DNA of 64,000 nt, taken from positions 62,001-126,000 of the forward strand of contig NZ_BONR01000005.1 of assembly GCF_016862815.1 (NCBI RefSeq), in the 5' to 3' direction. The translations under genes and the position numbers were made by a program. Positions 1,094 to 63,344 of this stretch are shown here, in pieces. A model generated the notes under the pieces. That model saw nothing but the letters and a program-made list of their open reading frames with translations, did no database searches and had not been told where the DNA came from. Position 1 is the stretch's first letter. Each line of letters starts with the position of its first letter. Source of the DNA: Demequina activiva. GTDB lineage: Bacteria; Actinomycetota; Actinomycetes; Actinomycetales; Demequinaceae.

Positions 1094-3937
1094 TCACCGT
1101 GCCCGCAGCTGCACCGCCGTGGCGACGGCATCGACGATGAGCGCGCAGCGCCCGTCGCGGGGCACGGGCTCCGCGATGCCCTGCCAGCCGCGTGGCGCCA
1201 GCATGCGCAGCGCGCGAGGGCTGGGGTCGAGCAGCAGCACCGCATCCACGGGCGGCACCAGGTGCGGTGCGTCATGGCAGGTCACCGTCGCGTGAGGCAG
1301 GGACGCGGCCACCGCGTCGCGTGCCGCCCCGGCGGCGCCCACGACGGCCACCCGGCCGCGCGGCGCCGTGAGTGTCGAGGCACGGTCTCCGCCCACGGCC
1401 CAGCCACTCTCGACGTGATCCGGCAGCGAGCGCACCCAGCGCTCGGCGGGGTGGTGGTCGCCGTGGCACAGCTGTCCCTCGACCCAGGCGCCACCGATGC
1501 TCAGCCACGCCCTGCCGGGATGCGACGAGGAGAGCGCACGGTCACGAGGAGCTCCCCAGGGTGCGGCCGCGCCGGGATCGTGCCCGGGGATCACGGCGGT
1601 GATCGCAGCGGCGGCGGCGAGCCGGATGGGAGCGTGGGTCGCGCATGCGACGGCGGTGGGCGCTCGCAGCGCCAGGCGTGCCAGGAGCGCGTCAGCGGCG
1701 GCGCCGTCGTCCGCCTGGCCCAACCGCGCCAGCGCCCGCTCGGCGTCGTCGACCACCAGCAGCGCGTCGGACGCGCGCCCCACGAGGTGCACGGTGCGTG
1801 CGGCCTCACGCGGGTCGCTGGGCAGCCAGACCGGCCGCATGCCGACCGCACGCGCCTGCTGAGCGAGAGAGCTCAGCGCACTGGTGCGGCCCGAGCGCGC
1901 CGGCCCCACGATCACCGCCGGGCCGTCGGTGGGGCGCCAGACGACCTCGCGCTGGAGGCGCTCGCGGGGCCAATCGGCGAGCGCGAGCCGCACCTGATCG
2001 CCTGGTGCGGGCTCCCATCGAGCAGGCAACGGCGGCAGCCAGAGCGCCCGGGCCGGCGCCGCTCGTCTCCAGCGACTGGCCGCGACGTGGGCCAGGGAGC
2101 GTCCGGGCGGTGCAGGTGCTCCCACGCGCGAGACCGCCGGGCTCGGATCCGCGATGGGCGCAGCGATCTGCGCCATCTCGACGGCGCCCGCGCGCGAGAT
2201 CAGCGCCCTGCCGGGGATGCCCGGCGGCAGGTCCGCCGCCTCGGGCGTTCCCACCAGGTCACGCGACTCGGCCGCCCCGGCCACCCGCAGTGCGATGGTG
2301 GTCGACACGTTCGCACGCACCTCGGGGGTCACGGCCCCCGCGGGGCGCTGAGTCGCGAGGACCAGGTGCAGGCCCAGCGAGCGCCCCTGAGCCGCGAGCC
2401 GTGCGAGGTCAGGCAGGAAGCTCGGGTGCCGGGTCACGATCTCCTGGTACTCGTCGATCACCACGAGGAGCCGCGCAGGCGCATCGCCGCGTCGCTCCCA
2501 CTCCGCGATCGAGGCGAGGCCGCGCTCGGCGACCGCGCGCTTGCGCGCCGCGAGCTCGGCGCTGAGGGCGTCGATCACCCGTGTCGCCAGCGCACCGTCG
2601 AGATCGGTCAGCACGCCGCACACGCGAGGGAGCGTCAGGCATGAGCGCAGGCCCGCGCCTGCCTTGAAGTCCACGAGCGCGATCTCGAGGTCGGCGGGCG
2701 GGTGCGCGAGGGCGAGCGCCGCGACAAGCGTCTCCAGGGTCACCGACTTGCCGGAGCCGGTGGTGCCGGCGATCAGCAGGTGGGGGCCGTCGGCGTCGAG
2801 GTCGAGCTGCAACGTCGCGGTCGCGGTGCATCCCAGGGTCACGGTCAGCCGTCGCGGCGCGCCTCGCGCCCGCTCCTGCGTCGGCGAGGGCAGGTCCGCC
2901 CACCGCAGCGCCGCGGGCAGTGTGGTGTCACCGCGCGCGGCAGCGGCCGCGCGCGCCCGCGCATCGGCCGTCACCGCGGTCATCGCGAGCGGTGGGAGCG
3001 CGCTCTCCCCGTCCGGCGTGCGCTCGACGCGTCCGTGCGGCCCCACCGCGACGGTGGTGCGGCACCACGTGGGCGCCGTGGCGCCGCGAGGCACGTGCAC
3101 CATGCGGTCCCCGGCGCTCGGCTCGCCCAGCCACCGCATCCACGGCTCCGCCCACGCCTCGCCGGCAGGCGCCCGGCCTCGCTCGACGGCCACGGCACGC
3201 ACGTAGCCGCGGGCCCAGCGATCGTCTCCGACCACCGCCACCGGGCCCTCCGGCGGCCTCCACGGCTCGGCACCGCTCGAGGCGTGTGTGGGGCGGAGGC
3301 GGCGCACGAGCGCCGGCACCAGCATCGCGGCGGGCGCGGCGATGCCCAGGAGCGCCAGGTACCACCGGCCGGTCGCCACGGCGATAATCACGCCTGCGGC
3401 ACCTCCGGCAGCGAGCGTGCCCCACGCAGGCCGTGGGCGCTCCTGCGGCGGCGCGTCCGCCATGCTCGACGGGAGGTCGAGCACCACCACGCTGCGTCCG
3501 AGTCGCAGCGGTTGTCCGCGCGCCAGCCGACGAGCGCCGCGGGTGCCGTTGGACGACCCCGCGTCGCGCACGCGGCCGGTAGGACAGACCAGAGCGTGCC
3601 ACTGGGAGACCGCAGGGTCCGCGAGGCGCAGGTCGCACTCGTCCGAGCGCCCCACCACCACGCCTCGCGGCCCCACCGTGACGGAACCGCCGGCATCGGG
3701 ACCCGCGATCACTCTCAGCGTGGGACCGGACGCACCTGGCGGCGCGCATCGCTCGGGTTCGGGACGAGCGCTGAGGCGCGCGCCGTGGACGAGAGGAGGC
3801 ACTCCCGCGGGATGGTCATCGTCGAGCCGTACCCTCCCGCACCACAGCTCGCTGAGCCCCGCGGCCTGGGCGATCCGCGAGGCAGCGGTGCCGGTGCGGA
3901 CCTCGAGATCGACATCGCCAGGGACTGTCACGCGCAT
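1094..3937 (-). CDS. FHA-domain FtsK/SpoIIIE-type ATPase (EssC/EccC-like)
   Basis: A 947-residue protein. Residues about 73-155 form an FHA domain (VVGRSDECDLRL ... DAGSSNGT), which binds phosphothreonine peptides. Two membrane helices follow at about 172-215. The first ATPase domain has Walker A GTTGSGKS near residue 392 and Walker B LLVVIDEYQE near 494. Two further modules keep remnants of P-loops (VGPARSGRTS and VVGAAGAARDA) and look degenerate. FHA, paired helices and tandem FtsK domains match type VII secretion motors such as EssC more than DNA translocases. No WXG100 substrate or other secretion gene is nearby, so it is an orphan motor here and its cargo is unknown. Confidence 0.85.
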   Translation of the reverse strand: MRVTVPGDVDLEVRTGTAASRIAQAAGLSELWCGRVRLDDDHPAGVPPLVHGARLSARPEPERCAPPGASGPTLRVIAGPDAGGSVTVGPRGVVVGRSDECDLRLADPAVSQWHALVCPTGRVRDAGSSNGTRGARRLARGQPLRLGRSVVVLDLPSSMADAPPQERPRPAWGTLAAGGAAGVIIAVATGRWYLALLGIAAPAAMLVPALVRRLRPTHASSGAEPWRPPEGPVAVVGDDRWARGYVRAVAVERGRAPAGEAWAEPWMRWLGEPSAGDRMVHVPRGATAPTWCRTTVAVGPHGRVERTPDGESALPPLAMTAVTADARARAAAAARGDTTLPAALRWADLPSPTQERARGAPRRLTVTLGCTATATLQLDLDADGPHLLIAGTTGSGKSVTLETLVAALALAHPPADLEIALVDFKAGAGLRSCLTLPRVCGVLTDLDGALATRVIDALSAELAARKRAVAERGLASIAEWERRGDAPARLLVVIDEYQEIVTRHPSFLPDLARLAAQGRSLGLHLVLATQRPAGAVTPEVRANVSTTIALRVAGAAESRDLVGTPEAADLPPGIPGRALISRAGAVEMAQIAAPIADPSPAVSRVGAPAPPGRSLAHVAASRWRRAAPARALWLPPLPARWEPAPGDQVRLALADWPRERLQREVVWRPTDGPAVIVGPARSGRTSALSSLAQQARAVGMRPVWLPSDPREAARTVHLVGRASDALLVVDDAERALARLGQADDGAAADALLARLALRAPTAVACATHAPIRLAAAAAITAVIPGHDPGAAAPWGAPRDRALSSSHPGRAWLSIGGAWVEGQLCHGDHHPAERWVRSLPDHVESGWAVGGDRASTLTAPRGRVAVVGAAGAARDAVAASLPHATVTCHDAPHLVPPVDAVLLLDPSPRALRMLAPRGWQGIAEPVPRDGRCALIVDAVATAVQLRAR

Positions 3938-4000
3938 GCCGCCAGCGTGGCGGTGGCCCTGGGGCGGGCGCGACCCCGGCGGCGGATCTGTGGAGAACTC

Positions 4001-5593
4001 CTAGTCGCCCACGGTGATCGACAGGCGCGCCTCGCCGCTGATCAGACCGTTCGCATCCATGGCCGTGTAGGTCGCGCGGACCGTTCCGGACGCTCCCGGT
4101 GCTGGCGTGAACGTGATCTCGCCCCCGGACGCCTCGAAGGTGCCATCCTCCGTGCTGACGGACGACTGCACGCCGGCGGCGGCGGTGTCGAGGTCGAGCC
4201 CTGCCTCGTCCCAGCCGGCCTCCGCGTACACCTTGTCGTTGGCCAGGACGTTCACCGTGACCGGTGCATCGGCCGTCGTCGTGGCGTAGTCCGTCTCCGC
4301 GAGGGGCGCGAAGCTCTCCCACGCCTCACCGTCGCGCACATGGCGGGTCCAGTTGCCCACGAGGTCGCATGCCGGCCCCGGGCACTTCTGCGTGAAGCCC
4401 ACGCTGTCGGTGGGAGCGGCGATGCTCGCCTCGGGCTGCATGATCCAGAAGTGCGAGCCGTCGCCGCCGGCGTCGTAGAAGGTCTGCAGCCAGTGATCGA
4501 ACACTGCCATGCGCTCGAACTGGTCGATCCATCCGTACTCGCCGATGTAGTACGGCTTGCCGGCCTCCTCCGCGATCTGACCGTGCTGCTCGATCCACCA
4601 CGCTCCCCACTCCTCCCAGTCGTCCGTGGGGGTCGTGGGCTCCCAGTGGTTGGGGTAGACGTGGATGCCGTGCGCGTCGATGTTCGGGTCCTCGAGGAGC
4701 GCCACCGGGTCCGCAGACTCGGTGCAGTTGAACAGCGTGTCCTCGCTGTCGGGCTCGGTGCAGAGGAACCCCTCGCCGCCGAACCCGACCATGTGGTCGG
4801 GGTCGATCGACTTGACGTGAGCCGCCATCTCCTGCGCCCACGCGACGATCATGTCCGAGCCGCATGCGTCGCTCGAGGGGTAGGGGCCGCTGTCCGAGCA
4901 GCGCAGCTCGTTGCCGATCTCCCACAGCATGATGGTGGGATCGTCCTTGTACGCGATGCCGGTGAGGGGGTTGACGCGGTTGAGCAGGTGCGTGACCCAA
5001 TCCTTGTACCAGCCGCGGATGGTCTCATCCGTGAAGAAGTCGTCGTGGTGGTCCAGGCCTGCCCAGCGCACGTACTGGTCGATGCCTCCGAACGCGGTCC
5101 AGTTGTTGACCAGCGGCAGCATGAGCTTCACGTCCCTCTCGCCCGCGGACCAGATCAGGTAGTCGAGCTTGCCGAGCCCGTCGGGTCCGTCGTTGTACGC
5201 AGGGGCGCCCGCCTCCGCGTCCCAGTACTGGAAGTACGTGCCCGGGTTGTTGCCCTCGACGTTCAGGTCGCCGTCCTCGGTGCCGATGTCCAGGAACGCC
5301 CATGCTCGGGCGACCGGCATCGCGCCCTCCTGGAAGGTCTTGAGGTAGACCTCGACCCCGGGCTCCGATTCCAGCATCAGCGTGTACGCGTTCGAGCTGG
5401 CGTAGGAGTAGGGCTCGCCATCGAGCATGAACTGGCCGTCCTCGGCGTGCACGAAGCCCTCCCGTGCCTGGCTCCCGGAGCCGTTCACGATCCCGTAGCC
5501 GATCAGTCCCACGAGCATGAGCGCGGCGATCACGAGCAGCGCGACCCCCACGCGGGCCGATGCGGGGGTGCGGGCAGCGGTGGTGTCAGACAT
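4001..5593 (-). CDS. Secreted or membrane-anchored GH5 endo-beta-mannanase
   Basis: A 530-residue protein. An N-terminal hydrophobic segment (about residues 14-36) is a signal or anchor. The glycoside hydrolase family 5 barrel follows, with acid/base Glu in LWEIGNEL, nucleophile Glu in YYIGEYGW, and motifs typical of mannan endo-1,4-beta-mannosidases. The last 110 residues (NVLANDKVYAE ... YTAMDANGL) form a cadherin/Ig-like repeat module. The start MSDTTAAR has GGAGG seven bases upstream. It should cleave plant mannans outside the cell. It stands alone, with no transporter or regulator for sugars beside it. The exact GH5 subfamily is inferred. Confidence 0.88.
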   Translation of the reverse strand: MSDTTAARTPASARVGVALLVIAALMLVGLIGYGIVNGSGSQAREGFVHAEDGQFMLDGEPYSYASSNAYTLMLESEPGVEVYLKTFQEGAMPVARAWAFLDIGTEDGDLNVEGNNPGTYFQYWDAEAGAPAYNDGPDGLGKLDYLIWSAGERDVKLMLPLVNNWTAFGGIDQYVRWAGLDHHDDFFTDETIRGWYKDWVTHLLNRVNPLTGIAYKDDPTIMLWEIGNELRCSDSGPYPSSDACGSDMIVAWAQEMAAHVKSIDPDHMVGFGGEGFLCTEPDSEDTLFNCTESADPVALLEDPNIDAHGIHVYPNHWEPTTPTDDWEEWGAWWIEQHGQIAEEAGKPYYIGEYGWIDQFERMAVFDHWLQTFYDAGGDGSHFWIMQPEASIAAPTDSVGFTQKCPGPACDLVGNWTRHVRDGEAWESFAPLAETDYATTTADAPVTVNVLANDKVYAEAGWDEAGLDLDTAAAGVQSSVSTEDGTFEASGGEITFTPAPGASGTVRATYTAMDANGLISGEARLSITVGD

Positions 5594-5722: not shown

Positions 5723-7825
5723 TCACCGCACGCCGAGCGGCTCGACACGTCCGTCGGCGTCCACGACTCCTGCTCGCCAGCGGTAGTCGCGCTCGTAGTA
5801 GCTGCGGGGGATCCCGCCGAGCGTGTACGACGAGTGGCGCACGGACGCGTCCACGACGATGCCCGCCTCGCCCGTCCACGGGACGCTGTCCTCGCCGCGC
5901 GTGAGCACCAGCGGCGACTCGTCCCACGCGGCCGCCATCCCAGCGAGGTTCTCCGCCGACTGGGTGCTGAGCGCCAGCACGACCGGGACGTCGCACATCA
6001 CCCGCAGCCCGCCGTACAGCTCGGATGTGCCCACGAGGACGATGGGACGTCCGGGGGAGAGCGCGCACAGGTCCTGGATCATGTCGCGCGCGCCGATCAT
6101 CTCCCGCGTGGTGACGTTCACCGCCGAGGACACTGGCGTGGGCTGGTCAGGAGTGACCGCGATCCAGGTGGTCAGCGGGAGGCCCACCATCGCCGCCCCC
6201 GTCACGGCACGCAGCACGGCGCGCGTGCGCTCGCGGCTCGCGAGCGCCGCCAGCGCCCAGCCGCCCAGCGCTGCGGCGAGGAGGAATCCGGGCAGCGTGG
6301 CGGGCTCGAAGCGCCGGATCGCCCAGATCTGGTCCGGGATGATCGACGGCCGCACCAGGTACAGCAGGCTGGGAGCGAGGACCGCGCCCAGCGCGATCGC
6401 CCAGCCGCCGCTGCCGCGCAGCGCCCGGACGGCGGCGATGCCGAAGCCCACGACGGCGAGCACGACCAGCGGCCACGTCAGGTAGTACGCGAGCCAGCTC
6501 ATGGTCGACTCCGCATAGGTGCGCGTGGCGTCGATCGGGAGTCCCTGCGCGGCTTGGAAGCTCTCGACCACGCCGTTGGCGAAGGTGTCGCCGTCGGACT
6601 CGGTGCCGCGCCGCGCGACGGTCCACAGCGGGCGCGACGCGAGCACCGTCAGCAGCGCGGCGACGGCGGTCCCGACTCCGACGGCAGCCCGCCCGCCCAT
6701 CGCGGAGCGCAGGCGTGCCACGAGGCGCTCGCCCGCGGCCGATGCGGTCGCCAGGCCGATCAGCACGGTCACCAGGGCGAGGGCGACGTACGCGAGGTTC
6801 AGTGCCGTCGAGCGCTCACCGAGCCGGTCGATGTACTCGCGCGACCACACCTGGAGGGAGACGTACCCCACCCCCACCAGGAGCGCCTGCGGCAGCACGA
6901 AGGCGGCGGCCGCTCTCGCGCGCCACCCTCCGGCCGGGCCCGCCAGCACCACAGCCGCGAGCACTCCCGCGCACGCACCGATCGCGAACGCCGTCCCGTC
7001 GATGCGCACCAGCATGGTCGCTCCACTGGCGAGGCCGCCCGCCGCCAGGAGCGCGAGCGAGCGCTGCTCGATCCCGCGCCAGGCCCACAGCAGGCCGGCG
7101 ATCACGAGCACCAGGGTGAGCGGCTCGGTGTACGCAGGGCGCGACAGCCCGATGTGCGACACCGTGAGGGCGAGAGCGCCCGCGGGCGCGAGCGCTGCGT
7201 ACGGGCCCAGGAAGCGCCTCGCAGCGGCGTAGACGGCGAGGATCCCGATGGCGCCCACGACCACGTTGGCCGCGAGCACCCCCGTGTCGCCGGCGACCCA
7301 CCCCCCGATCGCGATGGTCGCGGGCAGCATCTTCGCGCCCTGGGGTTGGATCACGTCGCCGCGCAGGTTCCAGGCCTCGGAGGCGTCCGGCAGGCTCTGG
7401 GCCCCCGCGGCGGCGGCCTCGACCGCTCCCGCCGCCGGGATGTCCGTGCTGGCATGGTCCACCAGCCACAGTCCCGAGAGCGTGAGGAAGCCGGGGTCCC
7501 GGACCACCAGCAGGTACTCCGCCGCGAGCGCGAAGCCGAGGAGCGTCCACGCAGCCGTGCCGATGACGGCGACGGCGGCCCCTCGCGCCTCAGCGATCGT
7601 GGTCGACGGCGCGGGCGCGAGTGGACGCCATGCGACCACGGCGATCCCGAGCGCCAGCGGCAGCACGGTCCACCAGTGGTGCAGGGACGCCGTGACGGCG
7701 ATGCCGGCGGCGAGGCTCAGGGACACTCCCACCAGGACCAGGCGCTCGGGTGCGGCGGCCAGCGCGCTCCCAGCACGGCCGATGCGCGGCTCCGTCGCTC
7801 GGGCGTCGGAAGGGGAGGGCGTCAC
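5723..7825 (-). CDS. GT-C-type polytopic membrane glycosyltransferase-like protein
   Basis: A 700-residue protein with about a dozen hydrophobic helices, then a soluble C-terminal part of about 150 residues. The first large external loop (VVRDPGFLTLSGLWLV) and the overall plan resemble GT-C enzymes, the dolichyl/polyprenyl-phosphate-sugar mannosyltransferase superfamily. Acceptor and donor cannot be read from the sequence. The GTG start is supported by TACCCT (a likely -10) ending eight bases upstream, so the message may be leaderless. It lies between the mannanase and a divergent two-component system. Confidence 0.6.
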   Translation of the reverse strand: MTPSPSDARATEPRIGRAGSALAAAPERLVLVGVSLSLAAGIAVTASLHHWWTVLPLALGIAVVAWRPLAPAPSTTIAEARGAAVAVIGTAAWTLLGFALAAEYLLVVRDPGFLTLSGLWLVDHASTDIPAAGAVEAAAAGAQSLPDASEAWNLRGDVIQPQGAKMLPATIAIGGWVAGDTGVLAANVVVGAIGILAVYAAARRFLGPYAALAPAGALALTVSHIGLSRPAYTEPLTLVLVIAGLLWAWRGIEQRSLALLAAGGLASGATMLVRIDGTAFAIGACAGVLAAVVLAGPAGGWRARAAAAFVLPQALLVGVGYVSLQVWSREYIDRLGERSTALNLAYVALALVTVLIGLATASAAGERLVARLRSAMGGRAAVGVGTAVAALLTVLASRPLWTVARRGTESDGDTFANGVVESFQAAQGLPIDATRTYAESTMSWLAYYLTWPLVVLAVVGFGIAAVRALRGSGGWAIALGAVLAPSLLYLVRPSIIPDQIWAIRRFEPATLPGFLLAAALGGWALAALASRERTRAVLRAVTGAAMVGLPLTTWIAVTPDQPTPVSSAVNVTTREMIGARDMIQDLCALSPGRPIVLVGTSELYGGLRVMCDVPVVLALSTQSAENLAGMAAAWDESPLVLTRGEDSVPWTGEAGIVVDASVRHSSYTLGGIPRSYYERDYRWRAGVVDADGRVEPLGVR

Positions 7826-8617: not shown

Positions 8618-9928
8618 ATGCGTCGCCGGGTCCTGCAGGCCACCATCTCCGCTCTCGCGGTCGCGGTCATCCTGCTGGGCATCCCGCTGGGATTCTTCTC
8701 CGCGCAGCTGGTCCGCGATGATGCGCTGCGCGACCTCGACCTGCGCACCGGCACCGCCGCTCGCGCGCTCGACGTGCGCTATCGCGCCGGGGAGACCATC
8801 ACCGAGGACAACCTCTCCTCGTACGTGAGCTCGGCCCCCGGGGCCGGCTCGTACATCTACGTGCAGCTGCCGGACGGCACCGAGCTGACCGCGGGAACCG
8901 AGCCCGCATCGGCCTTCTCCGACTCGACCGTGACCGAATCCGGCCTCGTGGTGGTCATGTCCGTGTCGTGGTGGGACGTGTTCTGGCAGGCGGCTCGCTA
9001 CGTGGGCCTGGTGATCGTGCTGGGCACCATCGCCGTGGGCGCCGGGGTGGCGATCGCGATCTGGCAGGCGAACCGGCTCACGGCACCGCTCGTGTACCTC
9101 GCGGCCAGCGCCGAGCAGCTGGGCACGGGCCAGGTGCGCCCGCGCATCGACCGCTCCGGCATCGAGGAGATCGACCAGGTCGCGGACGAGCTGGCCCGCA
9201 GTGCGGACCGCATGGCAGCTCGTCTGGCGGCCGAGCGGCAGTTCGCGTCCGACGCCTCGCACCAGCTGCGCACGCCGCTGACCGCCCTCACCATGCGGCT
9301 CGAGGAGATCGCCGTGACCACCACGCAGGACGAGGTGCGCGAGGAGGCCGACAAGTCCCTCGAGCAGGTCGAGCGCCTCGTGGGCGTGGTCGACGACCTG
9401 CTGGGCCGCTCTCGTCGCGCCCTGGGCTCCGGCACGGAGCTGGTGGTGCTGCGAGACGTGCTGGACCAGCAGCGAGAGGAGTGGGCCCAGGCCTTCGTGG
9501 GGGCGGGCCGTCGCCTGGTCATCCACGACACGGATGCCACGGTGTTCGCCACGCCCGGCGGGCTCGCGCAGGTGCTCGCCACGCTGATCGAGAACTCGCT
9601 GCACCACGGTGGGGGCACCACCTCCGTCACGACCCGCGAGTCCGGCACCAATCACGCGATCGTGATCGAGGTGAGGGACGAGGGGGAGGGCGTGCCGGAG
9701 GAGATCGCGCCCCGCATCTTCGAGCGCGAGGTCACCAGCGGCAAGGGAACTGGACTGGGACTCGCGCTGGCGCGTGACCTCGTCACCGCCGACGGTGGCC
9801 GCCTCGAGCTCGCGCACCGCGTCCCGGCCTCGTTCGCCGTGTTCCTGCAGGGGGTGCCCCACATGGTGGACCTCGACACGGTGGTCCCGCATTCGGGGAC
9901 CGTGCCGCAGCGACGCCGTCAGCGCTGA
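8618..9928 (+). CDS. Membrane sensor histidine kinase
   Basis: A 436-residue kinase with a first membrane helix (about 9-30), a short extracellular sensor of about 85 residues and a second helix (about 122-150). HAMP and a HisKA domain follow, with phosphoacceptor His215 in SDASHQLRTP. The HATPase domain has N-box TLIENSLHHGG and G2 box GTGLGLALARD. It is co-transcribed with the upstream response regulator. The short sensor loop suggests an envelope signal, but nothing identifies a ligand. Its 3' end overlaps the convergent GtrA gene by ten bases. Confidence 0.92.
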   Translation: MRRRVLQATISALAVAVILLGIPLGFFSAQLVRDDALRDLDLRTGTAARALDVRYRAGETITEDNLSSYVSSAPGAGSYIYVQLPDGTELTAGTEPASAFSDSTVTESGLVVVMSVSWWDVFWQAARYVGLVIVLGTIAVGAGVAIAIWQANRLTAPLVYLAASAEQLGTGQVRPRIDRSGIEEIDQVADELARSADRMAARLAAERQFASDASHQLRTPLTALTMRLEEIAVTTTQDEVREEADKSLEQVERLVGVVDDLLGRSRRALGSGTELVVLRDVLDQQREEWAQAFVGAGRRLVIHDTDATVFATPGGLAQVLATLIENSLHHGGGTTSVTTRESGTNHAIVIEVRDEGEGVPEEIAPRIFEREVTSGKGTGLGLALARDLVTADGGRLELAHRVPASFAVFLQGVPHMVDLDTVVPHSGTVPQRRRQR

Positions 9929-10459: not shown

Positions 10460-11605
10460 ATGACCTCCCCCATCGTCGCCGTCATCGGCGGAGGCCAGCT
10501 GGCGCGAATGATGACGCCTGCCGCCACCGCGCTCGGCATCACCCTGCGCATCCTCGTCGAGTCCGACGAGGCGAGCGCCGCCGCCGCGGCCCACGAGACC
10601 GTCGTGGGCCTGCCCACGGACCCCGACGCGGTGCAGCGCGTGCTCGCGTCGCCCCGGCCCGACGTCGTCACCTGGGAGCACGAGCACATCCCCGCGGAGG
10701 TGTTCGAGGCGTGCGAGGCCGCAGGCGTGCCCGCCCGCCCTGGCCTGGGGGCGCTGCGGTTCGCGCAGGACAAGATCGAGATGCGTCGCCGCATGGACCA
10801 GCTGGGGCTGCCCAACCCCGCATGGCGGGAGGTCGCGACGCTCGCTGACATCGAGGAGTTCCTCGCGGCGCACGGTGGCGAGGCCGTGCTCAAGACGGCG
10901 CGTGGCGGCTACGACGGCAAGGGCGTGCGAGTGATCAGCGACGCGGCCGATGCGCGCGACTGGATCGAGTCCGCCGCGGACGGCGGCCCCCGCCTGCTGG
11001 TCGAGCAGAAGGTGCCGTTCGTGCGGGAGCTCGCGGTGCAGATCGCTCGCCGTCCCAGCGGGGATGCCCGCGCGTGGCCGGTCGTGGAGTCGATCCAGCG
11101 CGACGGCGTGTGCTCCGAGGTGACCGCTCCGGCTCCGGGACTCGATCCGACGCTAGCGCGCCAGGCGGAGGGCATCGCCCGCACCATCGCGGCGGAGCTC
11201 GACGTCACCGGAGCGCTCGCGGTCGAGCTCTTCGAGACGGCCGAGGGACTGGTGATCAACGAGCTCGCGATGCGTCCCCACAACTCCGGGCACTGGACCA
11301 TCGACGGCTCCGTCACGAGCCAGTTCGAGCAGCACCTGCGCGCGGTGCTCGACCTGCCGTTGGGCGACACGTCCGCGACCGCGCCGTGGACCGTCATGGC
11401 CAACGTGCTGGGCGGTGCCCGCACGGACCTGCCGTCTGCGCTGGCGGAGACGGCGGACCCGGGCGCCAAGGTGCATCTGTACGGCAAGGGCGTGCGTCCG
11501 GGTCGCAAGGTGGGTCACGTCACCGTGAGCGGGGACGAGGCGGAGAGCACCTATGCGAGGGCAGTCGCCGCCGCGGCTATCGTGAGGGACGGAGGTGCGG
11601 CATGA
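10460..11605 (+). CDS. purK: 5-(carboxyamino)imidazole ribonucleotide synthase PurK
   Basis: A 381-residue ATP-grasp enzyme that carboxylates aminoimidazole ribonucleotide using ATP and bicarbonate in purine synthesis. The N-terminal dinucleotide-like motif [13 protein letters not shown]-type ([13 protein letters not shown] here), the glycine-rich grasp loop [11 protein letters not shown] and the C-terminal [16 protein letters not shown] are diagnostic. Length is normal for the family. It overlaps purE by the ATGA stop/start, so the two are translationally coupled. Confidence 0.97.
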
Positions 11606-12111: not shown

Positions 12112-12132
12112 GCGCGCGCATCGGCCGCGCGC
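12112..12132. terminator. Possible GC-rich hairpin between convergent genes
   Basis: GCGCGC at 12112-12117 and again at 12127-12132 can pair across a 9-base loop. This could end transcription from both the purE side and the LCP side. There is no T tract. The loop contains a copy of the decamer CGCATCGGCC. Confidence 0.3.
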
Positions 12133-19332: not shown

Positions 19333-20633
19333 TGATCCGCATGGTCGCCACCGCGGTGGCTCTGGCCTGCGTGCTCGGCGCAGCGACGCTCGCGGCGCCA
19401 GAGCCCGGAGGCGAGGGCGGTGCGACCGCGGTGGTGCCCATCGCTCCCGTCCGGCAGCCGCTGGCGTGCCCGGGCCCTCTCGAGATTCCCGTCGGAGCGA
19501 TCTCATCAGGGGACGAGGTGCTCGACTCGGGTTCAGCGGACGTGACCTACGACGTCACTCCGACTGGACGCCCCGTGGGCGCAGGCGTCGCCGTGGATGC
19601 GCCGCAGGCGGTGAGCGTGGAGCGCGTGGGCACGGGCGACATCGCCGGGCTCGCCGGCGTAGGCTGCACCCCGCCGGCTCAGGACCAGTGGCTGGTGGGC
19701 GGCTCCACGGCACTCGGCGCCAGCGCACGACTCGTGCTCACCAACCCCACCGCATCGGCCGTCCGTGCGCGGGTGCAGATCTACGGACCGGGCGGACTCG
19801 CGGAGCAGGACGCCTCGGTGCTGCTGGGCCCCGACAGCCAGGGCACGCTCCTGCTCGAGTCGATCGCTCCCGAGGTGACGGCCACCGCGGTGCACATCCG
19901 TGCGGAAGGCGTCGGTGTGAGCGCTGCGCTGCAGGACTCGCGGCTCGACGGCTTCACGGCGGCCGGGACGGACTGGGTGTCCCCGGTGGAGCCGGCCACG
20001 TCGCTCGCGATCCCCGTCGCCGGCGCGTCGACCGATGATGCGCCGGCCTCCGTGTCGCTGATGGCCCCCGACGGCGCGGAGGTCACGCTCGCGCTCGTGA
20101 CGGAGGACGGCCCGCAGCCGTGGCTGGGCGACGAGGCGGTGGTCCTCGAGCCCGGTGTCGTGACCGAGATCCAGGTGCCTGTGGCCGCACTCGCGGCGAT
20201 CCAGATCGAGGCCACCGCGCCCGTGGTCGCCGGGGCTCGTGTGCTGGTGGCGCGCGACGCACCCCTCGACGATGGCTCGCTGGCGTTCGATCATGCGTGG
20301 ACGGGCGGCCAGGACGTGAGCGAGACGCGCAGCCGCGCCCTGGTGGTGCCCGACGCGGACGTGACGCTGGTCGCGACCTCTCCCGCTGGCGGCACCTTCA
20401 CGGCTGAGATCGACGGCGAGACGGTGTCCGTGGACCTCGGCGCTGGTGTGCTGGCGTCGCTGCCGGGCTCCTGGGAGCCCGGGACGGTCATCACGAGCTC
20501 CCACGCTGCCGCGTGGGCGCTGCTCGTGACGGACGCCGACGCGGGCTTCATCACCACCGTGGAGCCGGTGGTGACCGAGCTCGACGGACGGGACGTCACG
20601 GTGACCGTCGGCAGCTACCCGCTCGTGCCGTAG
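19332..20633 (+). CDS. DUF5719 family exported protein
   Basis: A 433-residue protein with a signal peptide (about residues 1-25, ending LAAPEPGG), then beta-rich sequence without recognisable catalytic motifs. Repeated short Ig-like stretches are visible (ASARLVLTNPTASAVRARVQ, and later APVVAGARVLVARD). It is translationally coupled to the large glycosyltransferase, and the pairing is conserved in Micrococcales, so the two probably work together at the cell surface. Biochemical role unknown. Its 3' end overlaps the convergent metallopeptidase-family gene by 19 bases. Confidence 0.75.
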   Translation: MIRMVATAVALACVLGAATLAAPEPGGEGGATAVVPIAPVRQPLACPGPLEIPVGAISSGDEVLDSGSADVTYDVTPTGRPVGAGVAVDAPQAVSVERVGTGDIAGLAGVGCTPPAQDQWLVGGSTALGASARLVLTNPTASAVRARVQIYGPGGLAEQDASVLLGPDSQGTLLLESIAPEVTATAVHIRAEGVGVSAALQDSRLDGFTAAGTDWVSPVEPATSLAIPVAGASTDDAPASVSLMAPDGAEVTLALVTEDGPQPWLGDEAVVLEPGVVTEIQVPVAALAAIQIEATAPVVAGARVLVARDAPLDDGSLAFDHAWTGGQDVSETRSRALVVPDADVTLVATSPAGGTFTAEIDGETVSVDLGAGVLASLPGSWEPGTVITSSHAAAWALLVTDADAGFITTVEPVVTELDGRDVTVTVGSYPLVP

Positions 20634-25302: not shown

Positions 25303-26130
25303 TCAGTTGACCACGTCGGGCACGCCGTACGGGAGGACGTCGAGGCGGGTGGCCTCCGCATCGGCCCTCGCACGGCGCCGCTCCTCGATGCCGTGCTCGC
25401 GCCGTCCGCGCTCGGCGAGCACGGCCGCCACGAGGTCCTCGGGATGCGTGTGCGCCGGCGGCGGCGGGGACACGTAGTCGCTCATGCGCCCGCTCAGCTC
25501 GGTCGCCAGGCGCGCGCGGGACCCGGGGTGCAGGGTGGCAGCGCGTGCGAGGAACATGCGGCAGGTCAGCGCGAAGCCGTCCGGCAGGCGAGCGATGTCA
25601 GCGTTGCGCGCCCACGCCGCCAGGTGCGGCGGCATCTGCACCGGCGGCAGCGCACGGGTGCTGCCACGCACCCGCATCGCGTACGTGCCGGCGAGCATGT
25701 CGCCCAGCCGCTTGGCGCGGGCGCTCAGCACGGACACCGTGATCGCGAGCACGCCCAGGGTCAGGAACACCTCGACCAGTCCGGTGAGCGATCGCGCGAA
25801 CGCGTGGCGGAAGGAGATGGGACCGCCGTCGTCCCGCACCACCCGCAGCCCGCACGCGAGCCGCCCCACGGAGCGCCCGCGGGTGAAGGTCTCCACCACT
25901 GCGGGGACCACGATCAGCATGATCGCGACCGTGCCGATCATGACCGCTCGCTGGATCGCGGCGTTGGCGAGCAGCGTCGCGCCCGCCATCCACAGCGTCA
26001 GCATCAGCGTGGGCACGCCGTAGACCAGCAGATCGATGACCCCGGAGAGCATCCGGTTGGTCACGGCGGCGGCACCCGTGCTGAGCGCGACGCCCTCTCC
26101 CGTGAGGATCTCGTCGTCCATGGGATCCAT
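25303..26130 (-). CDS. RDD family membrane protein
   Basis: A 275-residue protein with the RDD signature: NRMLSGVIDLLVYG in the first helix, then RSVGRLACGLRVVRDDGG and FARSLTG. Three or four helices lie in the first 150 residues; the remaining 120 residues are soluble and charged. RDD proteins are associated with ion or osmolyte traffic, but no function is fixed. It is divergent from a SpoIIM-like gene with 41 bases between; the RDD/SpoIIM/DUF58/MoxR set is a common actinobacterial neighbourhood. The start could also be the ATG nine bases downstream (26121). Confidence 0.85.
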   Translation of the reverse strand: MDPMDDEILTGEGVALSTGAAAVTNRMLSGVIDLLVYGVPTLMLTLWMAGATLLANAAIQRAVMIGTVAIMLIVVPAVVETFTRGRSVGRLACGLRVVRDDGGPISFRHAFARSLTGLVEVFLTLGVLAITVSVLSARAKRLGDMLAGTYAMRVRGSTRALPPVQMPPHLAAWARNADIARLPDGFALTCRMFLARAATLHPGSRARLATELSGRMSDYVSPPPPAHTHPEDLVAAVLAERGRREHGIEERRRARADAEATRLDVLPYGVPDVVN

Positions 26131-27167: not shown

Positions 27168-27217
27168 GGCGCGCGTCGCCTCGTGGTCACGCCCCGCCCG
27201 GCCGATGCGCGGTCCGG

Positions 27218-36746: not shown

Positions 36747-36824
36747 GGGGCCCAGCGCGTCCCCAGGACGGCCGATGCGCGCTCGTGTCCTCAGCCGGCG
36801 CACCGTCGCGCTGCGGTGGCTCGC

Positions 36825-37707: not shown

Positions 37708-38379
37708 ATGGACATCGCGATCGTCGGACGCCACACGAAGGTCTCTGAGGACATGCGCCAGAAGATCTTCGAGAGGATGGAGAAGGTCGAGTCGCTCGCT
37801 CCCCGTGCCACCCGTGCAGAGATCAACGTGGTGCATGAGCGCAATCCGCGCCTGGCCTCCGATCGCGAGAGGGTCGAGATCACGCTCCACGACCACGGGG
37901 TGATCCGCGCAGAGGCCGCCGCAGACGATCGTCACGTCGCCCTCGAACGCGCGTCCGCACGCATCGTCGAGCAGCTGCGCCGGCAGCACGAGCGCCGCGC
38001 GAAGCGCCACAACAGCAAGCCTTCCCTGCACGCGGTGGTCGCGCAGGACCTCGCAGCCGACGGCACGGATGCGCGGTCGGGGTCCTCGGAGGAGGAGCGC
38101 GTCGAGAGCGTGGAGTCCTGGGAGGGCGCGCCCCACGACGCCACCGTGGAGGTTCCGGTAGACGGGACCCCCATCACCATCCGCTCCAAGACGCACAAGG
38201 CCTCGCCGATCACCGTCGCCGAGGCCATCGACCAGATGGAGCTCGTGGGCCACGACTTCTACCTGTTCCTCGACGCGGACTCAGGACTCGCATCGGCCGT
38301 CTACCGTCGTCGCGGCTGGACCTACGGCGTGATCCGCATTGAGGACGAGACCGAGAGCGCCGGCCGCGAGAGCGCCTGA
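37708..38379 (+). CDS. hpf: Long-form ribosome hibernation promoting factor
   Basis: A 223-residue protein. The N-terminal S30AE domain (MDIAIVGRHTKVSEDMRQKI ...) binds the decoding region of the 30S subunit. A charged linker (110-155) leads to the C-terminal dimerisation domain (SKTHKASPITVAEAIDQM, VYRRRGWTYGVIRIE) that pairs ribosomes as 100S dimers. This long form is usual in Actinobacteria. GAAGGAG lies seven bases before the ATG. The 124-base leader contains a GACGAC/GTCGTC dyad of unknown meaning. Confidence 0.95.
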   Translation: MDIAIVGRHTKVSEDMRQKIFERMEKVESLAPRATRAEINVVHERNPRLASDRERVEITLHDHGVIRAEAAADDRHVALERASARIVEQLRRQHERRAKRHNSKPSLHAVVAQDLAADGTDARSGSSEEERVESVESWEGAPHDATVEVPVDGTPITIRSKTHKASPITVAEAIDQMELVGHDFYLFLDADSGLASAVYRRRGWTYGVIRIEDETESAGRESA

Positions 38380-39362: not shown

Positions 39363-42185
<2,823 letters not shown>

Positions 42186-48464: not shown

Positions 48465-49771
48465 GCCCGCAGCATCGCCTTCCACATGTCCGGGAAGTCC
48501 GGCATGGTCTTGGCGGTGGTCCCCACGTTCAGCACCTGCAGCCCCGGGACCGCGAGGCCCAGGATCGCGGCGAAGGTCGCCATGCGGTGATCGTGGTACG
48601 TCTCGAGAGCCGCGGGCTGGAGCCCGCCGGCGGGAAGCCCCTCGAACGTGAGGGAGTCGTCCCCGGCGACGCAGCGCCCGCCGGCGCGGTCCACCTCGGC
48701 GGCGATCGCCGCCAGCCGGTCCGTCTCGTGCCCGCGCAGGTGGCCGATCCCGGTGAGCACGCTGGGGGAGTCCGCGAGGGCGCACAGCGCGGCGATGGTG
48801 GGAGTGATCTCACCTGCGGGGCCCAGGTCCGCCTCGATGCCGTGGATCACGCCGCCGGGCGCCGTCACCGTCATGACATCGCCCTCGAGGTTGCAGGTGG
48901 CGCCCATGCGCTCGAGCAGCTCGGGATACAGCGCGCCCGGCTGCGTGGTGGACCGAGGCCACCCCGGGATCCGGACGGTGCCGCCCGCCACGAGGGCAGC
49001 GGCCATGAAGGGGCCGGCGTTGGACAGGTCGGGCTCGACGCGCACATCGCCCAGCAGCACTGGCCCGGGCCGCACGATCCAGGTGCGCTCGTCCGGCTGC
49101 TCCACCTGCACCCCGGCATCACGCAGGGTCGCGCACGTCATGTCGATGTGCGGCAGGCTCGGGAGCGTCTCGCCTACGTGTCGCACCGTCAGCCCGTGAG
49201 GCACCCGCGCGGCGACCAGCAGCAGTCCGGTGACGAACTGCGAGCTCGCGCTCGAGTCCACCTCCACGCTCGCGGGGACCTCGGAGGGAGGCGTCACCGT
49301 GAACGGCAGGGTGCCACGGCCGCCGTCCTCCACGGTCGCGCCCAGCGCGCGCAGCGCGTCGAGCAGCGGCCCCATGGGGCGCACGCGGGCGCCCTCGTCG
49401 CCATCGAACGTGACGGGCGCATCGGCCAGCAGCACCAGCGGCGGGACGAACCGCATCACCGTGCCGGCGAGCCCGCAGTCCACGTGCACGCCGCCACGCA
49501 GGGGCCCGGGCGTGATCCGCCACTGAGCCGTCGCATCGTCGATCCCCACGCCCATGCTGCGCAGCGCTGCGGCCATCAGGGAGCTGTCGCGCGAGCGGAG
49601 ACCGCCGGTGAGCGTGACGGGAGAGTCGGCGAGCGCCGCGAGCACCAGGAAGCGGTTGGTGAGCGACTTGGAGCCCGGCACATCGACCGTGGCGTCGAGC
49701 CGTCCCGCCGCTGCGGGGGCGTCCCAGAGCTGTCCGGGACCGGTACCGCGAGTGGGCGCGGCTGCGCTCAC
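48461..49771 (-). CDS. aroA: 3-phosphoshikimate 1-carboxyvinyltransferase (EPSP synthase)
   Basis: A 436-residue enzyme that joins shikimate-3-phosphate and phosphoenolpyruvate in aromatic amino acid synthesis. PGSKSLTNRFLVLAALAD near the N-terminus, DCGLAGTVMRFVPPL for phosphate binding and YHDHRMATFAAILGL at the C-terminus are conserved. GTG start overlapping the stop of the DoxX gene (GTGA). It is the middle gene of the DoxX-aroA-rsgA run. Confidence 0.96.
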   Translation of the reverse strand: MSAAAPTRGTGPGQLWDAPAAAGRLDATVDVPGSKSLTNRFLVLAALADSPVTLTGGLRSRDSSLMAAALRSMGVGIDDATAQWRITPGPLRGGVHVDCGLAGTVMRFVPPLVLLADAPVTFDGDEGARVRPMGPLLDALRALGATVEDGGRGTLPFTVTPPSEVPASVEVDSSASSQFVTGLLLVAARVPHGLTVRHVGETLPSLPHIDMTCATLRDAGVQVEQPDERTWIVRPGPVLLGDVRVEPDLSNAGPFMAAALVAGGTVRIPGWPRSTTQPGALYPELLERMGATCNLEGDVMTVTAPGGVIHGIEADLGPAGEITPTIAALCALADSPSVLTGIGHLRGHETDRLAAIAAEVDRAGGRCVAGDDSLTFEGLPAGGLQPAALETYHDHRMATFAAILGLAVPGLQVLNVGTTAKTMPDFPDMWKAMLRA

Positions 49772-50274
49772 TTCTTGAGCTTCTTGGACGCCTTGGCGCT
49801 CAACACCTCAGCCTTGGCGGCCGCCTTGTCCTTCTTGGCAGCCAGCTTGTCCTTCTTGGCCTTGGCGCGCTCCTTGCGGCGAGGGCTGTGCCCGGCCGAT
49901 GCGGCGAGCAGCGTGCCGCCGAACAGCGACACGTTCTTGAGGAACAGCTCGAGCTGCTCCTCACGCTTCTGCTCGTCGGTCTCGAGCCAGAACGGACGCG
50001 CCGTGGCGACCGTGGCGGCGGTGAGCCCCGCGAGCACCAGGCCGGCGGTGCGCGGCGTGCGCGACAGTGCGAGGACCGTCGCAGCGGCGATCGACACGGC
50101 CCCGTGCACCTTCACCAGATCCGTGGTCCTGACGTCCTCGAGGCCGGCTTCCTTGAGCAGCGGCTCGACCACGGGGGCGGCGCGTTCCGCTCGCTTCTCG
50201 GGCTCCAGGACGGACTGGACTCCGCCGTAGACGAACCAGGTGGCGAGCAGGGGTCGGGCGAGGTGTCGGAACAT
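49768..50274 (-). CDS. DoxX-family membrane protein
   Basis: A 168-residue protein with four hydrophobic segments. It begins MFRHLARPLLATWFVYGGVQ, with LVKVHGAVSIAAATVLAL in the middle, and ends in a Lys/Ala-rich tail (AKAKKDKLAAKKDKAAAKAE) of nearly 40 residues. DoxX proteins associate with thiol and redox balance in mycobacteria. The gene is divergent from sigH, which controls the oxidative thiol response, so shared control through the 219-base gap is plausible. The strongly basic tail is unusual and may bind nucleic acid or phospholipid head groups. Confidence 0.78.
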   Translation of the reverse strand: MFRHLARPLLATWFVYGGVQSVLEPEKRAERAAPVVEPLLKEAGLEDVRTTDLVKVHGAVSIAAATVLALSRTPRTAGLVLAGLTAATVATARPFWLETDEQKREEQLELFLKNVSLFGGTLLAASAGHSPRRKERAKAKKDKLAAKKDKAAAKAEVLSAKASKKLKK

Positions 50275-51628: not shown

Positions 51629-52717
51629 GTGAGCGATCAGCCTGTTTCCGTCATCCCGTTCCTGCACGCGCTCGCGAGCACGGGCGGCTCCGACCTGCAC
51701 TGCAAAGTGGGCTCCGCCCCCCGCATCCGCGTCGACGGCCGTCTGCGCAAGCTCCAGGTGCCGCCGCTCACGCCAGCGGACACCCGCAACATGGTCGCGC
51801 AGGTGCTGCCCGAGGACCTCGTGGCGCAGTTCCGCGACACCCACGAGGCCGACTTCGCGTTCTCCCTGTCCGGCGTGGGGCGCTTCCGCGTGAACGCCTA
51901 CGTCGCGCGCGGCACCGACTGCCTGGTGTTCCGCCGCGTCGCCGTGGGCGCGACGCCCATGGAGGACCTCGGGCTGCCGGCGGTGATCGCGGACCTCGCT
52001 CTCGAGCCGCGCGGGCTGGTGCTCGTCACGGGCCCCACGGGATCCGGCAAGACCACCACGCTGGCGTCGATGATCGACCTCATCAACACCTACCGCGAGG
52101 TCAACATCATCACCATCGAGGACCCGATCGAGGTCCTCCACAGCGACAAGAAGGCGATCATCTCGCAGCGCGAGGTGCGCTCCGACACCCTCGACTTCAC
52201 CAACGCGCTGCGCGGCGCCATGCGTCAGGACCCGGACGTCATCATGGTGGGCGAGATGCGCGACATCGAGACCGTGCGCGCCGCACTGTCCGCCGCGGAG
52301 ACCGGCCACCTGGTGCTCGCGACCCTGCACACCGTGGATGCGCAGGACACGATCAACCGCATCATCGATTTCTTCACCCCCCACGAGCAGTCCCAGGTGC
52401 GCGCGACCCTGTCGCAGACGCTTCGCGGCATCATCTCGCAGCGCCTGGTGCGGCGCGGCGACGGCTCCGGCCGCACGCTCGCCGCGGAGGTCATGGTCAA
52501 CCACGGGCGCATCGCGGAGGCGATCGTCGACCCGTCCAGCCAGCCGCCCATCGCGGACCTCATCGCCGAGGGCGACTACTACAAGATGCAGACCTTCGAC
52601 CAGCACCTGTTCCAGCTGGTGCAGGAGCAGATGGTCAGCGTCGACGATGCCGTCGCGATCGCCACGCGCCCCCACGATCTGCTGGTGAGCCTGCGCAACG
52701 CGGGCGTGATCGTCTAG
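51629..52717 (+). CDS. pilT: PilT-like type IV pilus retraction ATPase
   Basis: A 362-residue secretion/pilus ATPase. Walker A GPTGSGKTTTLASM at about 134-147, Asp box IITIEDPIEVLH, Walker B DPDVIMVGEMRD and His box TGHLVLATLHT are all complete. The N-terminal PAS-like domain (GGSDLHCKVGSAPRIRVDGRL) and the C-terminal region match PilT rather than PilB or TadA. PilT pulls pili back, powering motility or DNA uptake. No pilin or pilus-assembly gene is in the window, so partners must be elsewhere. GTG start. Confidence 0.9.
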   Translation: MSDQPVSVIPFLHALASTGGSDLHCKVGSAPRIRVDGRLRKLQVPPLTPADTRNMVAQVLPEDLVAQFRDTHEADFAFSLSGVGRFRVNAYVARGTDCLVFRRVAVGATPMEDLGLPAVIADLALEPRGLVLVTGPTGSGKTTTLASMIDLINTYREVNIITIEDPIEVLHSDKKAIISQREVRSDTLDFTNALRGAMRQDPDVIMVGEMRDIETVRAALSAAETGHLVLATLHTVDAQDTINRIIDFFTPHEQSQVRATLSQTLRGIISQRLVRRGDGSGRTLAAEVMVNHGRIAEAIVDPSSQPPIADLIAEGDYYKMQTFDQHLFQLVQEQMVSVDDAVAIATRPHDLLVSLRNAGVIV

Positions 52718-52816: not shown

Positions 52817-53428
52817 TCAGTCCCGCTGCGCGACGGTGGGGTCGATCCCCAGCCACTCGTGCCACTGGGAGTGCAGCACCAGCCAGGCCATGAGGCCGTA
52901 GCCGGCCTGCAGCGGCAGCTCGCCGCCGGACGTGTCCATGTCCGTGGCCCACTGGTCGTGCCGCGCGAGCGGGCCGTACATGTCGACGTAGGGCACGTCG
53001 CGCCGGGTGGCGGACTCCTCGCACAGCGCCGCGTACTCGGCGATGGCTCGGCGGTCCACGGCGGCGATGGGCGGTGGTCCCACGAGCATCGCCTTGAGGC
53101 CCAGCGCCGATGCGCGGTCGAGCGTGTTCGCCAGGTGCAGCCGGGTCATGGTGGGGGAGACGCCCTGAGACACGTCGTGGCGGCCGATCGCGACCACCAC
53201 GTGGTCGCTGCCCGTGGACTCCTCGGCAGGACCGCGGCGCCGCAGCACCTCGTCATCCCAGCGGCTAGCGAGCTCGCCGGTGGTCTCTCGTGGCACGGCG
53301 AGCGTGTGGAAGCGCAGGTCCGCGCTCAGCGGCAGCGTCCGCGCGACCACGCGCCCCGACCATCCCAGCGCCTTGGGGTCTCCGTGGCCCGCGACCAGCT
53401 CGTCGCCCACGAAGAACACGTTCCTCAT
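52817..53428 (-). CDS. SGNH/GDSL-fold protein, catalytically degenerate
   Basis: A 203-residue protein with the SGNH outline. The first block reads [19 protein letters not shown], whereas active relatives have GDS(L/I). The nucleophilic serine is replaced by glutamate. The block V Asp-x-x-His pair is also absent ([12 protein letters not shown]). It retains the block II/III-like [14 protein letters not shown]. So it is probably not a hydrolase and may bind a ligand or partner. It overlaps kgd by four bases (ATGA), suggesting co-expression with that enzyme. Confidence 0.8.
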
Positions 53429-56400: not shown

Positions 56401-57267
56401 CTTCGCGAAGTCCATCCGGTCCGCGTCCTTGACGTTCGGCACCAGGAGCTGGCGTACGCCGTCGCCCTTGTCGAGGTCGATCGCGAGCCCGAAGTTGACG
56501 TGCTCTGGAGTGCGGATCGCGGGCTTGCCCTCGTCCTGCGCGTAGGCGACGTTCATCGCGGGCTGCTCGGTGAGCGCCTCGACGATCGCGTAGCCGATGA
56601 GGTGCGTGAAGCTGACCTTGCCGCCTCGGGTGCGCGACAGGTGGTTGTTGATGACCGTGCGGTTGTCCATCAGCAGCTTGGCCGGGATGGTGCGCACCGA
56701 CGTGGCGGTGGGGACGGAGAGGCTGGCCTCCATGTTGGTGACCACGCGGGCCGCGGGACCCCGCAGGCGCGACAGGCCGTGCTCGACGTCCTTGGCGGCC
56801 AGGGCCTGGTGGTCGTGGCTCTGGAGGTACGCGGCCGTGGGAGCCTGCGCCGTCGCGATGGGCTGCGTCGCGGTCGACTCGACGTCCGCCTCCGGAGCCG
56901 GGCTGTCGTCTGCCTTCGCGGCGGTGGCGTCCACCTGTGCGGCGGGCGTGGGCATCTCCTGCGTCGAGGGCTGCTCGATGCGGGGGCGTGCGGTTCCGGC
57001 GGCCGATGCGCTGGGCGCTGCGGGCGCGGACGCCTGGGCGGGCGCGGGGCTCGGCTCGCTCGCGGGAGCGGGAGCGCTGGCCGGCTCGGCCTCGGCGGCG
57101 GAGTCGACCGCAGTGGCTGACGGCTCCGCGGCTGGCGCCGCGCTCGGGCTCGACGGCGTGGATCCTGAGGCGTCTGCGCCGAGGATCAGGGAGGCGACGG
57201 AGGGTGCTCCGGCGCTCCGGGTGACGGTGGTGCGGTCAGTATCTGGCGCGCTGGTGTCGGTGGACAC
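53425..57267 (-). CDS. kgd: Multifunctional 2-oxoglutarate enzyme Kgd
   Basis: A 1280-residue enzyme fusing an E2-like succinyltransferase domain (about 170-380, with [14 protein letters not shown]) to a thiamine-dependent E1 domain (about 440-1280, with [12 protein letters not shown] and [12 protein letters not shown]). It converts 2-oxoglutarate to succinate semialdehyde, succinyl-CoA or hydroxy-oxoadipate in the TCA cycle. The usual N-terminal E1 segment NEWLVEEMY-type is missing: the protein opens with about 130 low-complexity Ala/Ser/Pro residues. A TGA lies ten codons upstream of the GTG start, so no longer form exists. Confidence 0.95.
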
Positions 57268-62532: not shown

Positions 62533-62558
62533 CGCCGCGCCTGGCTCACCGACCAGCA

Positions 62559-62580: not shown

Positions 62581-62589
62581 TTCGTCGTG

Positions 62590-63270: not shown

Positions 63271-63321
63271 GTCGGCTCCTGTTCGGGACGTTGCTTCGAG
63301 ACGCCTCAGACGCTACGGACC

Positions 63322-63344
63322 GCGCGGGGTCCCGCGCATCGGCC
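63322..63344. other. Hairpin plus decamer in the ald upstream region
   Basis: GCGCGGG (63322-63328) and CCCGCGC (63331-63337) form a 7-base dyad with a two-base centre, and the decamer CGCATCGGCC (63335-63344) continues from its right arm. It lies between the divergent GIN lipoprotein gene and ald. The rest of this 261-base gap shows no gene. Confidence 0.35.

Follow-up and report, generated by a model that had tools for sequence, protein, structure and literature searches.

Our analyses of a 64-kb stretch of the Demequina activiva genome (contig NZ_BONR01000005.1, positions 62,001 to 126,000; hereafter the window), of the genome to which it belongs and of related genomes revealed a short, non-palindromic word, the decamer CGCATCGGCC, that is over-represented beyond codon use and composition. 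A codon-preserving null model, clade-specific dialects, conservation at homologous sites and replacement of one dialect by another support a maintained, recognised word. By analogy with known systems, we propose the following model, to which we assign a probability of about 0.5: CGCATCGGCC may be the core of a genome-wide, DNA-uptake-like self-recognition word (approximately GCGCATCGGCCG) in one Demequina clade, with sister clades using related dialects. The competence system would include a sequence-specific DNA receptor that reads the word, so that DNA of the same clade would be taken up preferentially through it. Recombination of the word-bearing fragments would restore and multiply perfect copies, by biased uptake coupled to homologous recombination, and an altered receptor preference would move the dialect. 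Such a mode of action would resemble that of the DNA uptake sequences (DUS) of Neisseriaceae and the uptake signal sequences (USS) of Pasteurellaceae, here in a Gram-positive actinobacterium. To our knowledge, sequence-specific DNA uptake is well established only in those two families. Were the model true, self-selective DNA exchange would also occur in high-GC Gram-positive bacteria, and the dialects would be barriers between species of one genus.

A decamer enriched beyond codon use and composition

The word occurs in the window as 21 exact copies, ten on the plus and eleven on the minus strand, spanning positions 2960 to 63344, and thus exactly as counted in an earlier, sequence-only reading of the same DNA. 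That reading had expected 0.65 copies, an excess of about 30-fold. The order of magnitude stands, while the factor falls to about 17-fold when dinucleotide shuffles of the window are used (mean 1.20 copies, maximum 4; none of 100 shuffles attains 21). Its proposal of a whole-genome count was borne out as well, with 862 copies (438 + 424) in the 2.47-Mb genome of seven contigs, compared with 20 for the reversed word.

For the codon null, 464 kb of the genome were sampled (the window plus a further 400 kb, with 405 called genes). This sample holds 165 copies, 115 coding and 50 intergenic. For comparison, 40 codon-preserving shuffles average 10.97 coding copies, at most 16, and 20 first-order Markov simulations average 0.95 intergenic copies, at most 3. 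CGCATCGGCC tops the z ranking of all decamers in coding DNA (z 30.7), and the nine decamers that hold ranks 2 to 10 are all shift-overlaps of it. No composition-matched decamer shows a similar enrichment; the next in line is the shifted word GCATCGGCCC, with 23 copies observed and 2.8 expected. The earlier claim that codon preference offers no explanation therefore holds across these 464 kb, as distinct from the whole genome.

An explanation of the word's abundance by codon usage, dipeptide preference or base composition is refuted by these comparisons, and we accord it a negligible probability. Most coding copies do fall in the three codon contexts that had been pointed out before, Ala-Asp-Ala, Ala-Ser-Ala and Arg-Ile-Gly, and counts in genomes with another dialect often exceed the reversed control. 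Against this stand the codon-preserving shuffles, the intergenic excess and the outgroup counts: among 149 genomes sampled from the order, the 138 outside the genus (the other 11 lie within it) hold between 1 and 152 copies.

The copies are denser in intergenic DNA (0.76 per kb) than in coding DNA (0.29 per kb), an enrichment that the sequence-only reading had suggested looking for. Intergenic density varies with the orientation of the flanking genes, from 1.30 per kb in convergent and 1.03 in tandem to 0.39 in divergent regions. Spacing is near random (coefficient of variation 1.12) except for close pairs, and 14 of the 16 neighbouring pairs less than 150 bp apart in the 400 kb are inverted. 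The flanks weakly lengthen the word to roughly GCGCATCGGCCG, and the top intergenic words lengthen it upstream to CCCGCGCATCGGCCG. Descent of the copies from a mobile or repetitive extragenic palindromic (REP)-like repeat family is hardly credible: some intergenic copies do lie in inverted pairs, but 115 of the 165 copies are within genes, nearly all of these in three codon registers, no long flanking consensus surrounds them, and aligned homologous sites differ through substitutions.

One-mismatch forms at core positions 2 to 7 (GCATCG) number 79 in the 464 kb, with about 92 expected under a third-order Markov model, and those at positions 1, 8, 9 and 10 show some excess. The lack of an excess of core one-mismatch forms, despite 165 perfect copies, fits active restoration of the word.

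It is very unlikely that the word serves an enzyme of the AdnAB, AddAB or RecBCD type as a Chi-like signal for recombination. Chi motifs are short, over-represented and lineage-variable, as is the word, but they are polar with replication, whereas the two strands carry nearly the same number of copies in every one of eight 50-kb blocks (400 kb) and in the window, with no replication strand skew in either. The absence of skew had already been read from the window as a difference from Chi. Strand totals for a whole genome, such as 603 and 600 in genome G015, are no test of polarity, since the two replichores cancel. In addition, the word exceeds the length of known Chi sites and is enriched in intergenic regions.

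Two long gaps interrupt the distribution of the word. The longest gap between copies, 13.8 kb, has a normal GC content. Among the low-GC gaps of the 400 kb, the largest one (13.6 kb, GC 0.62 compared with 0.70) holds zero copies where about five are expected, and a word-free foreign island fits a self-mark, with the reservation that a single island is an anecdote. This island (L013:1-12823) encodes ParB-like, methylase, PbeA, PbeC, sigma-factor and RtcB proteins, of which the PbeA/PbeC type are defence genes.

Dialects and homologous sites across Demequina

Within the genus, the count of CGCATCGGCC ranges from 16 to 1203, and samples of 33 to 140 kb from 35 genomes revealed a related word in many of the genomes in which this one is scarce. 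Four patterns were counted genome-wide in a family set of 47 genomes, 44 of them from the genus: dialect A, CGCATCGGCC; B, CGCATCGTCC; C, [A/G]GCATCGGCC; and D, AGCGTCGG[G/C]C, where the C and D patterns each cover two words. The dialect words have the common core GC[A/G]TCG. A is the commonest of the four patterns in 6 of the 44 genomes (667 to 1203 copies), B in 15 (711 to 1564), C in 13 (327 to 1269, two words pooled) and D in a single genome (1201, again two words pooled), leaving nine that are weak, ambiguous or without a word. Among these nine, G026 has the D pattern 308 times and G034 255 times, and G022 seems to use GGCATCGTCC, found 11 times in a 40-kb sample. Demequina NBRC 110055, one of the two named strains whose SecA was compared with that of the window, itself contains 13 copies of GGCATCGGCC in a locus of 23 kb. 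With at least four dialects in 44 related genomes, the genus provides a natural experiment for the search for a receptor and for the study of word change.

Since dialect words read as ordinary codons, the reversed word is a poor baseline, and genomes of the other dialects are a better one. In these, CGCATCGGCC is found 72 to 483 times (15 B genomes) and 51 to 671 times (13 C genomes), the latter range indicating that A and C overlap in some genomes.

The dialects mostly follow the species tree, which was built from three conserved proteins in 31 genomes, with G041, G005, G010 and G012 dropped from the 35 for missing or short genes. The A genomes form one clade adjoining four C genomes, the other C genomes are placed deeper, and most B genomes fall into one group. 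The exceptions are the B genomes G020 and G028, which are placed among G026, G003 and G043, and the D pattern, which appears in two places. No clear word was found in the sampled DNA of G003, G043 and G044, nor by the codon null in G003, G043 and G026, despite the D-pattern copies of the last. G020 is a strong B genome by whole-genome count, yet inconspicuous in its 40-kb codon-null sample, so that failure to see a word in so little DNA carries little weight.

Is the position of a word conserved between genomes, a check that the sequence-only reading had suggested for homologous loci? Genomes of the same dialect were compared in eight disjoint pairs. The partner has the identical word at 36 of 59 sites, compared with identity at 64 of 200 flanking 10-mers (Fisher p ~1e-4), with two pairs running in the opposite direction (G000/G027 and G008/G017, in which 1 of 5 and 0 of 3 word sites are kept). 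Pooling all same-dialect pairs, which overlap and so make the sites non-independent, gives retention of 444 of 930 B sites (control 10-mers, 20%) and of 34 of 75 A sites (control 10-mers, 14%).

Between dialects, sites are often kept while their letters shift to the dialect of the genome in question, and the shift is clearest between A and C, whose words differ by one base. This comparison covers 28 of the 35 sampled genomes and ComEC-region loci only, and here too genome pairs overlap and sites are not independent. A sites hold the C word in C genomes at 36 of 149 positions and the A word at 10, relative to a background of 0.0003 per 10-mer. Conversely, C sites in A genomes hold the A word at 36 of 153 and the C word at 13. 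At 211 A sites in B genomes, the B word was found 12 times and the A word 5 times, and at 300 B sites in C genomes, the C word was found 15 times, the A word 3 times and the B word once. In G003, G043 and G026, words of dialects A, B and C are absent from all 47 A sites and all 99 B sites and present at 5 of 84 C sites.

Competence machinery and candidate readers

The genome encodes components expected of an uptake system. The comEA gene adjoins comEC, and a type IV pilus locus contains pilB, pilT, pilC, pilins and pilM, as well as genes read as prepilin peptidase, pilN and pilO from position and look; there are two pilT genes in the genome. The NCBIfam cut-offs are exceeded by both PilT proteins, by the N-terminal domain of ComEC and by the N-terminal motif of pilins, whereas PilB and PilM fall just under, and PilC, ComEA and full-length ComEC further under; the peptidase-like protein has no NCBIfam match. 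ComEC was matched in 46 of the 47 family genomes. The suggestion of DNA uptake, which had been based on two genes in the window, gains strength from comEA, comEC, pilB, pilC, pilM and the two pilT genes and falls short of proof. Of the two window genes, one encodes a PilT-family type IV pilus ATPase (a T2SSE protein; 51629..52717, plus strand), whose match to TIGR01420 at 434.6 bits, above the cut-off of 319.1, confirms its assignment. The possible comF (36816..37583, plus strand) is less secure: it lies between the LpqB and HPF genes, a position that fits comF synteny, but its phosphoribosyltransferase match is weak and under the Pfam cut-off. By itself, comF is no evidence of competence.

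The comEC match is in two pieces in three genomes (G037:C1:2039413-2040200, G010:C1:296957-297743 and G022:C1:423579-424363), which could be sequencing error or real disruption.

Several features link the word to known uptake sequences. Pasteurellaceae USS are characterised by their density, by occurrence in both orientations and by clade variants, and the Demequina word is similar in each respect. For the DUS of Neisseriaceae, PMC3630211 describes eight dialects that share a CTG core and track phylogeny, an enrichment in convergent intergenic regions and inverted close pairs. The Demequina word is likewise short and non-palindromic, is present in hundreds to more than 1000 copies in coding and intergenic DNA, has core-sharing dialects along the phylogeny and inverted pairs, and is accompanied by competence genes and a type IV pilus locus. 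It differs from DUS in its Gram-positive actinobacterial host, in its core, GC[A/G]TCG rather than CTG, in that the sole minor pilin compared (PilX) does not track dialect, and in that its uptake effect and receptor are hypothetical. Nor do the few Demequina sites that were folded give hairpins better than shuffles do: the RNA folds of four stretches of the window, three with an intergenic copy and one with a close pair (z +0.23, -0.52, +1.27 and -0.52 relative to dinucleotide shuffles) lend no support to the claim that copies stand beside GC-rich dyads.

A further precedent is Micrococcus luteus, in which, according to PMC4322843, natural transformation depends on Flp pili, with comEA/comEC; in its main text the phrase 'uptake sequence' is absent. 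This species resembles Demequina in its actinobacterial competence genes and differs in its pilus, Flp/Tad rather than the type IV pilus locus found here. Its transformation with Flp pili makes a Flp/Tad route possible, and it may serve as a model for families that lack such a pilus. Among the papers listed for the open-licence PubMed Central literature, to which the search was confined, none reported uptake-like words in Actinobacteria, and PMC1939737 gave no match on uptake words in other taxa.

A number of observations weigh against an uptake word. Among the papers listed for the open-licence PubMed Central literature, none gave uptake or transformation data for Demequina. Known uptake sequences have one orientation that is commoner in the reading frame (PMC2346458), unlike the Demequina word, whose coding copies are divided into 56 sense and 59 antisense relative to transcription. 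ComEC was matched in 10 of 14 control genomes as well, and hence its presence is weak support for uptake, and G003, G043 and G026 keep ComEC, ComEA and PilM without a clear word by the codon null. Conversely, PilM was not matched in five Intrasporangiaceae and one Microbacterium that are rich in a word of their own (see below). Main-clade B sites in the stray B genome G028 are kept at 2 of 9, 2 of 8 and 1 of 9, hardly above controls at about 16%, which suggests that the words of G028 arose apart. The local dialect does not prevail in two of the cross-dialect comparisons: of 176 B sites in A genomes, 24 stay B and 12 are A, and of 401 C sites in B genomes, 23 stay C, 15 are B and 9 are A. Two candidate receptors gained no support. 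PilX, a minor-pilin-like protein of the pilus locus, falls into strongly divergent types that do not track dialect, and no column of ComEA links the stray B genomes G020 and G028 to the main B clade as opposed to G003, G043 and G026.

The divergence of PilX is considerable even between close relatives, the G009 query matching its tree neighbour G014, also a strong B genome, at 29% over half its length. More generally, the minor pilins beside conserved pilB/T/C vary greatly among Demequina species, with at least two types (L229, L230, L231 and L233). In an alignment of ComEC from 28 genomes, eight columns join G020 and G028 to the B clade as opposed to G003, G043 and G026, and one column shows the reverse. 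These columns are an unexplained weak lead, and tree relationships could produce them.

What if the reader acts on the chromosome rather than at the cell surface? The word could be the site of a DNA-binding protein with a nucleoid, segregation or repair function, or of a methylase. Selection or a linked repair bias would maintain it, as has been discussed for HIP1, and the dialects would reflect that protein's evolution. We regard this explanation as possible and hold it tentatively, at a probability of about one in three. Enrichment, dialects, positional conservation and the lack of polarity fit it equally well, and it removes two problems, that of wordless genomes with competence genes and that of word-rich families without a PilM match. 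However, a typical orphan methylase would not read a non-palindromic word symmetrically, individual selection on some 860 sites would presumably be demanding, and the word peaks in density in convergent regions and has mostly inverted close pairs, as PMC3630211 describes for DUS. HIP1 of cyanobacteria (PMC4390886) is a very frequent short palindrome tied to orphan methyltransferases. The Demequina word is also short and very frequent, but it has clade dialects and a reverse complement, GGCCGATGCG, that differs from the word itself, and the lack of a palindrome disfavours a HIP1 reading. Thus, among the word types considered in the sequence-only reading, a selected, recognised word is supported, whereas its comparison to HIP1 is not. 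If the reader is a chromosomal protein, a genome-shaping protein awaits discovery.

Words in other Micrococcales and copies in the window

Words of a similar kind may exist beyond Demequina. GKATGCCG was counted genome-wide in 44 named Micrococcales genomes, with the reversed word as a control. It reaches 2149 to 4252 copies in five Intrasporangiaceae (reversed 262 to 951), 4547 in one Microbacterium (L104; reversed 276) and 1873 in one Cryobacterium (L074; reversed 267), and is less strongly enriched in one Leifsonia (L062; 1399, reversed 301); in the remaining 36 genomes it is found at about 1.1 to 3.7 times the control. At the locus level, GTATGCCG is scattered on both strands in the Intrasporangiaceae loci L046, L047, L049, L053 and L060, and GGATGCCG is scattered in the Microbacterium locus, with 29 copies in 22.5 kb.

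It is conceivable, though we lean against it, that several Micrococcales families have their own self-recognition words (the GCATCG-core dialects for Demequina, GTATGCCG for Intrasporangiaceae and GGATGCCG for Microbacterium) and that a receptor independent of the type IV pilus reads them. This would amount to self-specific DNA uptake in Gram-positive bacteria or to a new kind of self-marking, with dialects limiting interspecies exchange. PilM was matched in Cryobacterium and Leifsonia, and several Cellulomonas relatives have a PilM match and 21- to 23-kb loci without a dispersed word. If the words of Intrasporangiaceae and Microbacterium are the same phenomenon, the missing PilM matches there indicate that the type IV pilus is not a general reader, and its role as a general requirement is unsupported.

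Other dispersed words, seen in loci L051, L065, L094 and L096, include CGCCGTCCG (a Kineosporiaceae metagenome-assembled genome), CCGACGGCG (Ruaniaceae), CCATGGCAC (Glutamicibacter) and CCCCCTTCG (Janibacter). Words of the CTGCCCGTAC type in loci of Cellulomonas, Cellulosimicrobium and Oerskovia were considered as dialects and rejected by the filter for dispersed copies on two strands. The CTGCCCGTAC / CTGGCCGTAC repeats in L044, L050 and L069 failed the same filter, and are therefore probably clustered locally.

Genes were called with a simple custom caller, so start sites and some intergenic labels are uncertain; the names LeuS, LepA and HolA were assigned from sequence and neighbourhood. 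Four copies of CGCATCGGCC are intergenic, in agreement with the earlier count. One (12117..12126, plus strand) is flanked by the convergent AIR carboxylase and LytR_cpsA_psr genes, which end at 12111 and 12148, and another (27200..27209, minus) by convergent called genes with ends at 27167 and 27218. The third (36770..36779, minus) lies directly past an LpqB-type gene that ends at 36746, and the fourth (63335..63344, plus) is intergenic according to the gene calls. The caller gave a fifth (57001..57010, minus), which is probably coding, as it lies inside a longer KGD reading frame (53425-57267). The copies at 29453..29462 (plus) and 29528..29537 (minus) form an inverted pair, and two others are located within the S30AE (HPF) gene at 37708-38379 (38289..38298, plus) and within secA (41576..41585, minus). 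The remaining copies are on the plus strand at 2960..2969, 8905..8914, 19751..19760, 25357..25366, 35375..35384 and 49418..49427, and on the minus strand at 5555..5564, 6737..6746, 7777..7786, 10945..10954, 32046..32055 and 49894..49903.

Positions 1094-3937 of the window encode an FHA-domain protein with an FtsK/EccC-like ATPase region, which scores under the family cut-offs. The SecA protein encoded in the window is 79-81% identical to SecA of two named Demequina strains.

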